Of a stretch of 64,000 nt of DNA, positions 5,799-27,315 are shown in pieces (position 1 is the stretch's first letter; the number at the start of each line of letters is the position of its first letter). The stretch spans positions 1-64,000 of the forward strand of contig NZ_QQVY01000008.1 in NCBI RefSeq assembly GCF_003590715.1, in the 5' to 3' direction. Position numbers and translations under genes: made by a program. A model generated the notes under the pieces. That model ran no database searches, was not told the origin of the DNA, and saw nothing but the letters and a program-made list of their open reading frames with translations. The stretch comes from Paracoccus sp. JM45. GTDB lineage: Bacteria > Pseudomonadota > Alphaproteobacteria > Rhodobacterales > Rhodobacteraceae.

Positions 5799-6299
5799 AT
5801 GATCAGACTTGGATTGCTGATGCTGGCAACATTGCTGGGGCTTTTTGTGGCGTTGCAGACCTTCGGGACCGGTGATCTGCGCAGCCGCCAGCACCCCCCG
5901 CGCCCCGAAAAACCGGTCAGCGCGGCGCAGGATGCAGGCCGCGACCCCTTGGCGCAGACGGCCCCCATCCAGCCGGTTGTGCAGGCCGAAGCACAGACAC
6001 CCGAAAAAAAGATCGAATATCCGGGACCGGAGCTTGTCCCTTCGCCCGAATATGCGGGGCGCACGCCAGCGGCCCCTGCGGTGGTTCTGGGCGAAGATGG
6101 TGAGATCATGTATGTGACGGCATCACGGGTAAATATGCGGTCGGGTCCGGGCACGCAGAATTCGGTCGTCGACAGTCTGGCGCGCGGCACCGCGGTCGAG
6201 GCTGTGGCCAGCGCCGACGGCGATTGGGTGCAGATCCGCACCGCACAGGACCAGTTGGGCTATGTATCGGGGCAGTTCCTGTCGCCTGACGCACCATGA
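5799..6299 (+). CDS. SH3 domain-containing exported protein
   Basis: A 166-residue protein with an N-terminal membrane/signal helix (MIRLGLLMLATLLGLFVALQ), a proline-rich linker, and a C-terminal bacterial SH3 domain (about residues 105-164, VNMRSGPGTQNSVVDSL). Such domains bind peptidoglycan or peptide ligands in the periplasm. The function is otherwise unknown. The start follows AAGG. The stop overlaps the start of the next SDR gene by 4 bp (ATGA), indicating translational coupling. Confidence 0.85.
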   Translation: MIRLGLLMLATLLGLFVALQTFGTGDLRSRQHPPRPEKPVSAAQDAGRDPLAQTAPIQPVVQAEAQTPEKKIEYPGPELVPSPEYAGRTPAAPAVVLGEDGEIMYVTASRVNMRSGPGTQNSVVDSLARGTAVEAVASADGDWVQIRTAQDQLGYVSGQFLSPDAP

Positions 6300-22636: not shown

Positions 22637-23560
22637 ATGACCCATTGCATCCTTATCGGCGCCCCCGTGGACGAAGGGCAGCGTCGCCCCGGCTGCCTGA
22701 TGGGCCCTGCCGCCTATCGCACCGCAGGTCTTGCCGGCACCCTATCCGCCCTTGGCCACACGATCGAGGATCGCGGCGATGTCGCACCCGCCCCCATCGG
22801 GCAGGAAACCTGCGCCAATCCCGCTGTTCATCACCTGCCTGAAACTATCGCATGGACCAAGGCGCTGGCATCTGCGACCCAAAATGCCCTGCCTGACGGC
22901 ATGCCCATCATTATGGGCGGCGATCATTCACTGGCCTTGGGAACGGTCGCGGGCGTTGCGGCGCATGCTGCGAACATCGGACGCCCGCAGTTCGTGATCT
23001 GGCTGGACGCGCATAGCGATTTCCACACCGTCAATTCAACCACATCGGGGAACCTGCATGGCACGCCGATGGCTTATGCCAATGGTCAGGACGGCTTTGA
23101 CCCCTTCCCGCCTTTTCCAAACCCGATCCCCGGTGACAACATCTGCATGTTCGGTATCCGCAGCGTCGATCCCGCCGAACTGGCACTGATGCAGCCAACC
23201 GATATCACCGTGAACGATATGCGGGTTCTGGATGAACAGGGCATCGTCGCGCCGCTAAGGACCTTCCTCGACCGCGTCTGTGCGGCAAACGGGTTGTTGC
23301 ATGTCAGTCTGGATGTCGACTTCCTTGATCCCTCCATCGCACCAGCTGTCGGCACAACCGTCCCCGGCGGTGCCACTTTCCGCGAGGCGCATCTGGTGAT
23401 GGAGCTGCTGCACGAATCAGAGCTGGTGACATCGCTGGATCTAGTCGAATTGAACCCGTTTTTGGATGAACGCGGCCGGACAGCCAAGCTGATGGTCGAT
23501 CTGGTCGGCAGTCTGATGGGCCGCAAGGTCTTTGACCGTCCGACTCGCAGTTACGGATAA
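22637..23560 (+). CDS. rocF: Arginase
   Basis: A 307-residue manganese enzyme hydrolysing arginine to ornithine and urea. Metal-binding motifs are all present: GGDHSLALG, DAHSDFHT and SLDVDFLDPSIAP. The N-terminus ILIGAPVDEGQRRPGCLMGP is typical of arginases rather than agmatinases. GGAG precedes the ATG. No urease or ornithine enzymes adjoin it. Confidence 0.94.
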   Translation: MTHCILIGAPVDEGQRRPGCLMGPAAYRTAGLAGTLSALGHTIEDRGDVAPAPIGQETCANPAVHHLPETIAWTKALASATQNALPDGMPIIMGGDHSLALGTVAGVAAHAANIGRPQFVIWLDAHSDFHTVNSTTSGNLHGTPMAYANGQDGFDPFPPFPNPIPGDNICMFGIRSVDPAELALMQPTDITVNDMRVLDEQGIVAPLRTFLDRVCAANGLLHVSLDVDFLDPSIAPAVGTTVPGGATFREAHLVMELLHESELVTSLDLVELNPFLDERGRTAKLMVDLVGSLMGRKVFDRPTRSYG

Positions 23561-23615: not shown

Positions 23616-25640
23616 TTACCAAAGCTTGTTTTCGCGGTCATAGAACCGCTTTGACGCGGCTGCCACAAATGCATCTGCATCCAGCGCGGTAACGCCGTCG
23701 TCAGCTTCGACGCCTGCAGCCTTCAGCAGGGGTGCCGCGGCATCATCGGCAGCGATTGCTTTCAGGTGCGCGAAGGCGTCCGATACAAAGTCGATGGCGG
23801 GTTTGTATTTGGCGAATTTTGCCCCGTCATCTTCGCCCAGAACCAATGCAATCGCGTCCAACAGGACCGAAGGCGTGCCTGCCAACTGCGCCTCTGCCTT
23901 GCCGCGTTCCTTTGCGATCATGGTGACCTTGCCACCCTGCGCCTCGACGGCGGCCTTGATGGCATCTGCCTTCGCCGTATCGCCCCCATCGCCGATCAGA
24001 ATGCCGACACTCCGGCCTTTCAGCGTATGCTTGGCATTCTTGACGATCGACAGCGCGTCCGAGACGGGCATGTCGATCGGGTCACGGAAGGGGGTCGCGG
24101 CCTCTGGCAGTTCCTCGGCCAGACCTTCTGCGACCATCTTGGCCAGACCCTCGTCCACGACGCGCAGATGTCCCAGAATGCGCTGAATCACATGACCCAA
24201 GCCGACCTTTGACAATTCGAACGTAATTGCATCCGCAATATGATGCTGTTCAGCCTCGGTCTGGCTGCGATAGAACATGCGGGCCTGACTATAATGGTCA
24301 CCGAACAGCTCCGAACGCACGCGCAGTTTCTGGTCCGGCTCATTCCCCAGATCGGTCATGGATTTGACTGTTTTGAAGCCCTGATCAACGGCGCGGGGGC
24401 CAGTTTCCTCACCCACTTGGCTGAGGCTGTTGGGTTCGTAATTGGCACGGCCTTTGGGCACGGCCATTTGCATCATACCGTCGCGCTGGAAGTTGTGCAT
24501 CGGGCATTTGGGCGCATTGATCGGGATCTGGTGGAAGTTTGCCGTCCCCAGACGGGATTTCTGCGTATCCAGATAGCTGAACAAGCGACCTTGCAGCAGC
24601 GGATCATCGGTGAAATCGATGCCGGGAACGATATTGGCAGGACAGAAGGCGACCTGTTCGGTTTCGGCAAAGAAGTTATCGGGGTTGCGGTCAAGCACCA
24701 TACGACCCACGATGCGGACCGGAATATCCTCCTCGGGGATCAGCTTTGTGGCGTCCAGCACGTCATAGGGCTGCTGTTCGGCCCATTCGGCGTCAAATGT
24801 CTGGATGCCCAGTTCCCATTCGGGGTAATCGCCGCCCTCGATGGCTTCCCACAAATCCTGACGGTGGTAATCCTGATTGGCACCGGCGGTTTTGACAGCC
24901 TCGTTCCAGACCTGACTTTGCAGACCCAGTTTCGGCTTCCAGTGGAATTTGACAAAGGTCGATTTGCCTTCGGCATTCACCAGACGGAATGTATGGACGC
25001 CGAACCCTTCGATCATACGATAGCTGCGTGGAATGCCGCGATCGGACATGGCCCACATGATCATATGCATCGATTCGGGCATCAACGATACGAAGTCCCA
25101 GAAGGTGTCATGGGCACTGGCGGCTTGGGGATAGCCCTTGTCCGCCTCCATCTTGACGGCATGGATCAGGTCGGGAAATTTGATGGCATCCTGAATGAAA
25201 AAGACCGGAATGTCGTTGCCGACCAGATCCCAATTGCCTTCTTCGGTATAGAATTTCACCGAAAATCCGCGAACATCGCGGGGGGTATCCACACTGCCCG
25301 AACCGCCTGCAACGGTCGAGAACCGCGTAAACACCGGAATGCGGGATTTTTTAGTCAGAAAACTGGCCGAGGTCAGCTCGGGAATAGGATCCGTGCATTC
25401 GAAATAACCATGTGCGCCTGACCCGCGGGCGTGGACGATCCGTTCCGGAATACGTTCATGGTCGAAATGGAAAATCTTTTCACGCAGAACAAAATCTTCC
25501 AGCAGAGTTGGCCCCTTGGCCCCTGCTTTCAGGCTGTTCTGGTTGTCTGAAACGGGAATGCCCTGATTGGTGGTCAGCGTTTCGCCGCCCCGCTGGTGCA
25601 ATTCGCCGCCGTTGCCTTGCGTCTCGGTGATATCGGACAT
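23616..25640 (-). CDS. katE: Large-subunit catalase (HPII type)
   Basis: A 674-residue monofunctional haem catalase of the large-subunit clade. Key regions are the active-site His context [19 protein letters not shown], the Asn region [17 protein letters not shown], the proximal Tyr segment [15 protein letters not shown], and a C-terminal flavodoxin/DJ-1-like domain ([20 protein letters not shown]) found only in large catalases. The start at 25640 ([10 protein letters not shown]) follows a strong GGAGG site; the longer frame to 25691 is discarded. An FNR-like box lies 76-89 bp upstream. Confidence 0.96.
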
Positions 25641-25715
25641 GCTGGCCTCCTCTGGTCGCTTGCGCATCTGGGCAAGTAACACGTGCATCAATCACGCAGT
25701 TCCCGATTTCATCGG

Positions 25716-25776: not shown

Positions 25777-26084
25777 GCGGACGTGGCGAAATCGGTAGAC
25801 GCACCAGACTTTAAAATTTGGAGTGCCCGGCGGGAAATCGTCGGAGTAGAACCGCTCAAATTCGGGGAAAGCTGTGGGGGTCAAACCCCGTGCCAATCCC
25901 GAGCCAAGCCCGAGCGATCGGGAAGGTGTAGAGACTAGACGGGCGGCACCTAAGACCCCTTGCGGGGAGATGGTGAAGGGATAGTCCAGACCACGAACGT
26001 CGAAAGACGGCGGCGAAAGTCGAAGTGGTACGAAAATCTGTTTTCCGTAAGGAAGTGCGGGTTCAAGTCCCGCCGTCCGCACCA
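25777..26084 (+). tRNA. tRNA-Leu(UAA), interrupted by a group I intron
   Basis: The 5' exon (25777-25811) holds acceptor GCGGACG, D-arm GCGAAATCGGTAGACGC and the anticodon stem up to ...CTT. The 3' exon (26033-26084) continues AAAATCTG, then a long class II variable arm TTTCCGTAAGGAAG, T-arm GCGGGTTCAAGTCCCGC, acceptor CGTCCGC, A and an encoded CCA. Joined, the anticodon loop is CTTAAAA with anticodon TAA, and the mature tRNA is 87 nt. The split is between positions 34 and 35, the site used in cyanobacterial tRNA-Leu genes. Confidence 0.95.
25812..26032 (+). ncRNA. Group I self-splicing intron (IC3-like), ORF-less
   Basis: The 221-nt intron shows the group I core in order. P1: exon ACUU pairs with intron GAGU at 25822-25824 region, with U-G at the splice site. 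P5-type hairpin GGGG/CCCC (25877-25889). Q-like AATCCCGAGCC (25895-25905). P6 hairpin CCCGA/TCGGG closed by a GCGA loop (25909-25922). R-like segment 25925-25943. P8 CCCC/GGGG (25956-25967). S-like segment 25977-25988, with P7 formed by GACTA (25933-25937) and TAGTC (25982-25986). P9: ACCAC/GTGGT (25990-25994, 26025-26029) enclosing two GAAA-capped hairpins. The last base is G (omega-G). No endonuclease is encoded. Confidence 0.93.
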
Positions 26085-26097
26085 CCACCCCCTTGTT

Positions 26098-27315
26098 TTA
26101 CCGGCGGCCCGCCGCCATTCTGGCGGCCTGCGGCAGCCCCCGCAGGCGCATCATGGCCCATGCACCCATGAAAGGTCCGGGCATCAGGGCCAGAAAAACC
26201 CAACGCCATCCGCCAAGCAGCGTTGCCAATACCGGCATCAGCCAGATTGCCACCACCGTCAGCGCAAAGCCCAAGGCCAGCTGCATCGTCAGCGCCGTAC
26301 CGACAAGGCGCGGGTCGGACAGCTCTGTCAGGGCGGCGGAAAACTGGGCGCTGTCACCGATGATGCTGATCCCCCAGATGATGGCAATCAACGCCACCAC
26401 CCATGCAGGCCCAGCCCATGCCAGACAGATCAGCACGGCACAGGACCCCGAAACAGCCATCATGCCTGCGGTGGTCAGACAACGCCCGACCAGATCGGAC
26501 AAAAAGCCGCCAAGTGCACATCCGATGACCCCCGAGGCGATCACAACAAATGTCAGGACCGAAGCGTTGCCGAACGGCAAATCGCCCGCCTGCCCTGCCG
26601 CAATCGCAAAAGACAGGAACCACGCCCACATCGCATAGAGTTCCCACATATGGCCGAAGTAGCCCAGATTGGCCAAGCGGACCGGACGGTCGCGCAGAAC
26701 GGCCAGCGTCTGGCGGGGATCAAAGCTGGCGCGGGCAAATCCGTGCGGACCCTCACGCACGGTCAGTCCGAAGATACAGGCCGATGTCAGGGCCGCAATG
26801 CTGGCCCCCGCCACGACAAGGCGCCAATCCAGCCCCTGCCCCAAAGCCCGCAACAGATGCGGCATGGCAGACCCCAAGGTCAGCGCCCCGACCAGCAGAC
26901 CCATGGCAAGACCGCGCCCTTTGACGAACCATGTTGCCATCAGCTTCAATGCTGGGGGATAGACACCGGCCAAAGCCACACCTGTCGCCAGCCGTGCCAA
27001 CAGCAGTCCGGCAAAATCCGGTTCCAGCAAAACAGCACCATTGGCCAACGCCGCCAGCGTGGCTGCGATGGTAATCAGCCGCGTCATGGGCATAATATCG
27101 GGCAGGTTCACCGCCGAGGACGCAAGCGCCCCCAGCACGAAACCGATCTGGACCGCATTGGTCAGCCACGCGGATTGCGTATTGCTTAGCCCCCAATGGC
27201 TTACCAGATCGGGACCGATTGCCGTGGTCGAAAACCAGCACGCCATTGCACCGATGACACCGGCACAGATCAGCGCCAACGCTTTCCAGCGTCCGTCCGC
27301 GACCACAGCGGACAT
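26098..27315 (-). CDS. MFS transporter
   Basis: A 405-residue major facilitator with twelve predicted helices. The loop 2-3 region and GVYPPALKLMATWFVKGRGLAMG between helices 4 and 5 resemble cyanate/nitrate-type (CynX/NarK-like) and other small-solute MFS members; substrate cannot be assigned. The start codon overlaps the stop of the NYN gene, so the two are coupled. It ends 14 bp from the tRNA-Leu 3' end, in convergent orientation. Confidence 0.85.
   Translation of the reverse strand: MSAVVADGRWKALALICAGVIGAMACWFSTTAIGPDLVSHWGLSNTQSAWLTNAVQIGFVLGALASSAVNLPDIMPMTRLITIAATLAALANGAVLLEPDFAGLLLARLATGVALAGVYPPALKLMATWFVKGRGLAMGLLVGALTLGSAMPHLLRALGQGLDWRLVVAGASIAALTSACIFGLTVREGPHGFARASFDPRQTLAVLRDRPVRLANLGYFGHMWELYAMWAWFLSFAIAAGQAGDLPFGNASVLTFVVIASGVIGCALGGFLSDLVGRCLTTAGMMAVSGSCAVLICLAWAGPAWVVALIAIIWGISIIGDSAQFSAALTELSDPRLVGTALTMQLALGFALTVVAIWLMPVLATLLGGWRWVFLALMPGPFMGAWAMMRLRGLPQAARMAAGRR

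Follow-up and report, generated by a model that had tools for sequence, protein, structure and literature searches.

A group I intron divides tRNA-Leu(UAA) in a Paracoccus genome, and the gene probably spreads whole by replacement, with a relative on enterobacterial resistance plasmids

The tRNA-Leu introns of cyanobacteria and plastids are compact, lie between U34 and A35 and are of the IC3 type, a subgroup label that we assume also fits the Paracoccus intron described here. Transfer of the intron-bearing tRNA-Leu gene as a whole locus was reportedly found by Rudi et al., and a 2002 study is said to have placed an intron in the same tRNA gene of a proteobacterial host. Reinhold-Hurek and Shub in 1992 and Tanner and Cech in 1996 reportedly described group I introns in the tRNA-Arg and tRNA-Ile genes of proteobacteria. 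Two papers describe, for cyanobacteria and plastids, a group I intron whose position within tRNA-Leu(UAA) is fixed (PMC4033280, PMC4476775). The Paracoccus locus resembles these in having a group I intron in the same tRNA gene, but its host is alphaproteobacterial, and the gene appears to replace native alleles and to travel on resistance plasmids. With the case of Rudi et al. it shares apparent whole-locus transfer; it differs in involving Paracoccus and other Alphaproteobacteria and in the remnant half of a replaced gene. The tRNA-Arg and tRNA-Ile introns are, like this one, small group I introns of the anticodon loop (and tRNA-Arg(CCU) cases were met here), but they occupy a different tRNA and insertion point. 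In the open literature, which leaves most subscription journals outside, we found no report of tRNA-Leu introns in proteobacteria, of a Paracoccus origin of aac(3)-IId or of a group I intron on resistance plasmids.

We analysed a 64,000-nucleotide stretch of the Paracoccus sp. JM45 genome (the window, meaning the whole of this stretch). Our joint reading, with a probability of about 85%, is that a group I intron splits its tRNA-Leu(UAA) gene, that the gene spreads whole by replacement and that a relative resides on enterobacterial plasmids. Read from the sequence, positions 25777-26084 hold a gene for tRNA-Leu(UAA), interrupted in the anticodon loop between U34 and A35 (Table 1). The intron begins with TAAAATTTGG and ends with TACG, its terminal G at 26032; the 3′ exon opens with AAAATCTG and closes with GCACCA. 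By eye, P1 runs across the 5′ splice site of the window copy as ACUU followed by UAAAAUUUGGAGU, with a U·G pair, and an initial annotation had named both this pair and the terminal G. The covariance search suggested there matched Rfam RF00028 to the intron at 50.4 bits (E 7.5e-10, full model covered), 0.4 bits above the gathering score of 50. The genome (3.60 Mb, 81 contigs) contains no other RF00028 match at E ≤ 0.001. The window gene is absent from the output of ARAGORN in ordinary mode; joined exons gave tRNA-Leu(UAA) by ARAGORN at 54 of 54 relatives' loci. These 54 share the U34/A35 insertion site, with intron boundaries fixed at extraction to GACTT and G/AAAA, so that the terminal G, an extraction condition in the relatives, offers no independent test there. 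Ribozyme helices occupy most of the 221 nt of the window intron, which encodes no homing endonuclease, and the introns of the 54 relatives, at 201-281 nt, leave no room for an endonuclease gene, as the initial annotation had anticipated from the missing reading frame. The exon and intron reading, the Rfam match and the covariation described below agree with its main proposal of a compact group I intron at U34/A35. The window intron belongs, as a new member, to a known family of introns.

The fold was assessed on an alignment of 44 of 56 tRNA-Leu introns from relatives, excised where the joined exons gave a tRNA; the others were left out by choice (L011, L018, L019, L022, L023, L039, L047, L060, L062, L063, L069 and L074). 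Over 57 named pairs in these 44 introns, 94.3% of 2423 cells were paired, compared with 86.1% in shuffles, and 189 cells held both-side changes, compared with 68.3. None of 500 shuffles (0/500) matched the observed pairing or both-side changes. Sliding the partners by 1-3 columns left only 32-45% paired, although drawing the structure on the window sequence in itself favours the named version over slid ones. The same pairs and introns contain the core helices P3-P8 with the P3/P7 pseudoknot. Pairing is weakest in P2 (87% of cells), the P5 extension (92% and 59%) and the P8 extension (75%); P1 and P10 were assigned by eye. The GACTA/TAGTC strands of P7, presumably the guanosine-binding helix, the GCGA loop of P6a and the GAAA loops of P9a and P9b, all previously read from the sequence, are present on the named structure, and free folding of the window copy gave a z score of -2.8. 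Covariation across 44 relatives supports the predicted group I fold.

Table 1. Features of the split tRNA gene, its predicted helices and its neighbours (window coordinates)
Feature	Coordinates	Strand	Evidence
Arginase gene rocF, upstream neighbour	22637..23560	+	TIGR01229 282.6 bits, cut-off 227.6; synteny
Catalase HPII-like gene, between rocF and tRNA	23616..25691	-	NF008422 897 bits, below cut-off 1102; synteny
tRNA-Leu(UAA) 5′ exon, up to U34	25777..25811	+	Ends CAGACTT
Group I intron, 221 nt, endonuclease ORF absent	25812..26032	+	RF00028 50.4 bits; 44-intron alignment
P3 5′ strand, partner 25941-25946	25852..25857	+	100% of cells paired
P4 5′ strand, partner 25898-25902	25862..25866	+	Invariant
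P6/P6a, GCGA loop	25903..25927	+	Named structure and alignment
P7 5′ strand, partner 25982-25986	25933..25937	+	100% paired; both-side changes in 2/5 pairs
P8 (25947-25950 with 25972-25975) and extension	25947..25975	+	Named structure and alignment
P9 with P9a and P9b, each GAAA-capped	25990..26029	+	Named structure and alignment
tRNA-Leu(UAA) 3′ exon, A35 to encoded CCA	26033..26084	+	Sequence
Probable major-facilitator transporter, downstream	26098..27315	-	TIGR00893 35 bits, far below cut-off 395

We then considered how widely the split gene occurs. A full-length match to the intron-bearing gene was found in at least 25 of 125 Paracoccus genomes, its own included, a lower bound set by scoring two candidates per genome. 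A pattern for the intronless tRNA-Leu(UAA) matched 34 of the 125, with no overlap with the 25. Hidden diverged introns in the other 66 genus genomes were considered and rejected for the 20 sampled: at loci taken around a known 3′ exon match, ARAGORN recovered an intact intronless tRNA-Leu(UAA) in 20 of 20, 18 with the loop CTTAAAC that the intronless pattern misses, bringing the intronless total to at least 54 of 125; the remaining 46 were assigned to neither group. Across the class, 17 of 385 sampled genomes, the own one among them, matched gene plus intron essentially end to end (307-308 of 308 bases), and these fall under 16 family codes. With the intron alone as query, 41 of 394 family genomes matched, some copies lying in tRNA-Arg(CCU) and others, and 54 of 77 loci were tRNA-Leu(UAA) after exon joining. 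The idea that the intron is an oddity in its group does not survive these counts from class and genus. At six loci of the same genus (L081, L082, L377 and L379-L381) the intron-bearing tRNA-Leu(UAA)-like gene is of another kind, its acceptor being CCTCACG, and in L081 and L082 it lacks an encoded CCA; at L375 and L376, another odd intron-bearing tRNA-Leu(UAA)-like gene lies about 0.6 kb or less from tRNA-Thr(CGU).

The surroundings of the gene suggested how it reaches a genome. rocF also adjoins tRNA-Leu(UAA) alleles in several relatives, and at locus L154 an intronless allele is flanked by katE and the major-facilitator gene as in the window. In three Paracoccus genomes (G780, G784 and G819; loci L079, L076 and L077), the native intronless gene beside rocF is broken in the anticodon loop: homology to native loci spans rocF and ends at tRNA nucleotides 35-38, and 149-160 bp after the break stands a complete intron-bearing tRNA-Leu with different exons. 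Some 0.7 kb further downstream in G784, the sequence is again homologous to the native locus L156. Among the three genomes the 35-nt native half is 97-100% identical, the upstream 100 bp 79-82% and the spacer 78-89% (gaps omitted). At L079:1305-1360 the truncated native half meets an inverted partial copy of itself, and the two make up a fold-back hairpin that includes a T-run (RNA fold z -2.7); a similar hairpin was seen by eye at L076 and L077.

A relative of the gene is also carried on plasmids. Queried with the window gene, 1277 of 72,556 plasmid records matched, 1266 of them over at least 80% of the query; identity was 80-90% in 1260 and 60-80% in 17. The plasmid copy used as query found 1293 plasmid records, 1272 at 99% identity or more. 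Among 5426 complete E. coli genomes, 626 matched the window gene and 625 the 213-nt plasmid intron, the latter at 656 places (577 plasmid, 79 chromosome). No annotated feature lay under the match in the E. coli rows listed (20 for the window gene, 5 for the plasmid intron); RNA genes are not annotated in the plasmid collection, which makes its empty rows uninformative. Against RF00028, the plasmid copy (L002:6036-6248) scored 36.8 bits (E 2.4e-6) and the L079 intron 34.7 bits (E 1e-5), both 13-15 bits under gathering and hence missed by cut-off-based annotation. In both plasmids that we opened, the tRNA gene lies 93 bp from a gene labelled 'AAA family ATPase', followed by aac(3)-IId, whose product matches NCBIfam AAC_3_II at 541.5 bits (cut-off 480). 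We call the ATPase gene tmrB-like after plasmid papers that pair tmrB with aacC2; no NCBIfam match above cut-off was found for it. The tRNA is present at 5 of 5 named-genome loci with an identical AAC(3) (L093-L097) and at L125, where AAC(3) matches in pieces only, and is absent from L098 and L099, which carry a 97% AAC(3) variant. Of the plasmid records, 2340 contain aac(3)-II itself, and in 1550 of these the match is 99% or better.

The similarity of the plasmid tRNA gene to the three broken loci (G780 95.7%, G784 94.7%, G819 92.4%), together with homology upstream, points to a Paracoccus-like donor of the plasmid segment, a source that we favour somewhat. The upstream homology of the plasmid locus runs at 85% over 466 bp from base 5834 for G780 and G819 and starts from base 5947 for G784; no other genome of the 125 in the genus, and no other locus then compared, has much of this upstream sequence in common with it. 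It is appreciably less probable, although a serious contender, that the tRNA segment and tmrB-aac(3)-IId had separate donors and became linked only after capture. Two donors would fit L098 and L099, which hold the shared stretch (96-97%) without the tRNA and whose homology ends just past or inside tmrB, and none of the genomes and loci scanned had tRNA-Leu and tmrB-aac(3) linked on a chromosome. Set against this, a tmrB-like gene and aac(3) stand in the same order on Paracoccus chromosomes (L087-L089, L111, L113 and L116), though also in Microvirga and Azospirillum. AAC(3)-II relatives occur on Paracoccus chromosomes (16/102 genomes with any match; ten near-full-length, at 62-75% identity), and a protein tree of AAC(3) did not place the plasmid gene in Paracoccus. 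Outside plasmid-borne and clinical forms, a two-peptide-pattern scan found the best AAC(3) in Pleomorphomonas (77%), with Paracoccus at 75-76%; given this and the missing joined chromosome, the call of a Paracoccus-like donor rests on the tRNA half.

The distribution could instead reflect an intron-bearing gene ancestral in the Rhodobacteraceae or Alphaproteobacteria, later replaced by intronless genes, so that the pattern is mostly one of loss. We consider this unlikely, even though many intron-bearing Paracoccus genes occupy the conserved rocF/katE locus and such genes occur under 16 family codes of the class: full-length matches reach only the 25 of 125 genus genomes, and in the three genomes with a broken gene it is the native intronless one that is broken and the intron-bearing one that is complete, the reverse of loss. 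A gene tree also bears on this point; its 59 rows include G869 twice and leave out six bacterial and three phage rows, and its bootstrap is unsettled. It groups the window with G842 and G880 (99/99). The plasmid clusters with G780 and G784 (an unstarred branch, 93/88) inside a 97/91 group that unites a second Paracoccus type of four rows, the plasmid and five rows from other genera or families. The Paracoccus rows need six changes, two forced by starred branches, a count that speaks against ancestry, although the two forced changes could be one gain and one transfer out. Repeated acquisition of the gene by Paracoccus, or exchange in both directions, is probable.

The Paracoccus-like stretch of the plasmid starts at GGACTTAAAAAGTC, the anticodon-loop point of the chromosomal break. 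On the strength of this coincidence one can picture an integrating element that would enter the resident tRNA-Leu(UAA) at its anticodon loop, break the gene and supply an intron-bearing spare, the intron removing the element's target and blocking re-entry and aac(3)-IId having moved out of Paracoccus as its cargo; we regard this as quite doubtful. The native 3′ half was not found in about 38 kb downstream in G780, G784 and G819 or about 18 kb in G876, where, apart from matches at chance level, the search returned just the intron-bearing gene's own 3′ exon, and by eye there was no integrase-like frame among the listed G780 and G784 frames (130-150 aa or longer). The missing half and integrase argue against such an element, or for its decay. 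We also asked whether the left neighbours on the plasmid, two small ORFs and a DUF3883 gene, might be the element's right end, and rejected this, the DUF3883 relatives in Paracoccus being 39-46% identical over the longer matches.

Independently of any element, the intron might have homed, by reverse splicing or with an endonuclease since lost, into resident Paracoccus tRNA-Leu genes. Homing would account for the same U34/A35 site in 54 tRNA-Leu loci, though extraction fixed those boundaries, and it predicts exons of local type. We compared the mature tRNAs of the window and L064-L080 with 35 intron-bearing tRNAs from other genera and 13 distinct intronless tRNAs (CTTAAAC type excluded). All 18 of the 18 intron-bearing Paracoccus genes were 93-98% identical (median 95%) to the best other-genus intron-bearing tRNA and 78-84% (median 81%) to the best intronless Paracoccus tRNA. 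With exons of a local allele in 0 of 18, and 54 introns too short for an endonuclease gene, we judge homing very improbable. By sequence, exons and intron travel together in the 18 of 18 tested, apparently without invasion of a resident gene. The initial annotation had left a choice between ancient inheritance and transfer; the exon comparison and the broken native halves in three genomes come down on the side of transfer. It had also held mobility to be unlikely now, which stands for the intron, as it lacks an endonuclease, but not for the whole gene, which appears to have replaced native alleles and rides resistance plasmids.

Finally, we asked whether the genome holds another tRNA-Leu(UAA). 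RF00005 gave 43 tRNA matches, 41 typed by ARAGORN, with Leu anticodons UAG, CAG, GAG and CAA. No UAA anticodon occurred among the 41 typed of 43, and the two untyped matches (L178 and L199), at 74 and 63 nt, are too short for tRNA-Leu. tRNA-Tyr, tRNA-Ile(GAU) and tRNA-Ala(UGC) were also not among the 43, so this list is incomplete. Neither of two patterns for an intronless tRNA-Leu(UAA) matched anywhere in the genome, though the CTTAAAC loop type falls outside both. The intact second gene that would have made this copy dispensable was thus not found in the gapped list, and for that reason splicing of the apparently needed split tRNA is probably required. That the window copy is a decayed intron or tRNA pseudogene, as its Rfam score just above gathering might suggest, is scarcely credible given standard pairs in all named helices, joined exons identical to those of G842 and, with no other UAA gene found, UUA nonetheless serving as 6 of 352 Leu codons in ten window genes around the intron.

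Related introns occur in phages as well. According to passages of a 2014 review, phage introns observed to date sit in protein-coding genes (PMC3984707). The intron core pattern was present in at least 120 viral contigs. Typing the viral host genes through all splice sites with ARAGORN proved far too permissive and was rejected in favour of a strict tRNA-Leu exon rule, under which 7 of 80 sampled viral loci (L235-L314) had the intron in tRNA-Leu(UAA) and 73 failed. All 7 of these 7 gave tRNA-Leu(UAA) after joining, the tRNAs of L253/L296 and L287/L295 being identical. The isolated Agrobacterium phage Atu_ph07 (L390, record 112374-113946) has such a gene as well: its tRNA-Leu(UAA), split at U34/A35 by a group I intron of 278 nt, is unannotated. 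The intron-bearing gene could plausibly be carried by phages. In Gordonia phage Daredevil (L391), the same intron core lies in a gene that by eye resembles tRNA-Lys(UUU), about 0.6 kb from an integrase gene.

From established group I chemistry we infer self-splicing. The precursor would fold, with P1 pairing exon ACUU with intron GGAGU and placing U34 opposite G; an outside guanosine bound in P7 would cleave after U34, and the freed U34 would attack behind the terminal G and be ligated to A35, giving a tRNA that reads UUA. Homing by the intron itself seems absent. The whole gene would spread by displacing the native intronless allele, in Paracoccus probably on more than one occasion, and a relative of the second Paracoccus type, with its upstream stretch, now adjoins tmrB-aac(3)-IId on enterobacterial resistance plasmids. 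The window intron is ordinary in kind; the lead on the origin of a resistance gene, which lies outside the window, is unexpected and testable. An ordinary tRNA caller misses a tRNA gene that seems to be needed, and the half gene beside the newcomer offers what appears to be a snapshot of tRNA gene replacement. Used as a fingerprint, the intron allows the chromosomal source of the gentamicin-resistance gene aac(3)-IId to be tested directly.
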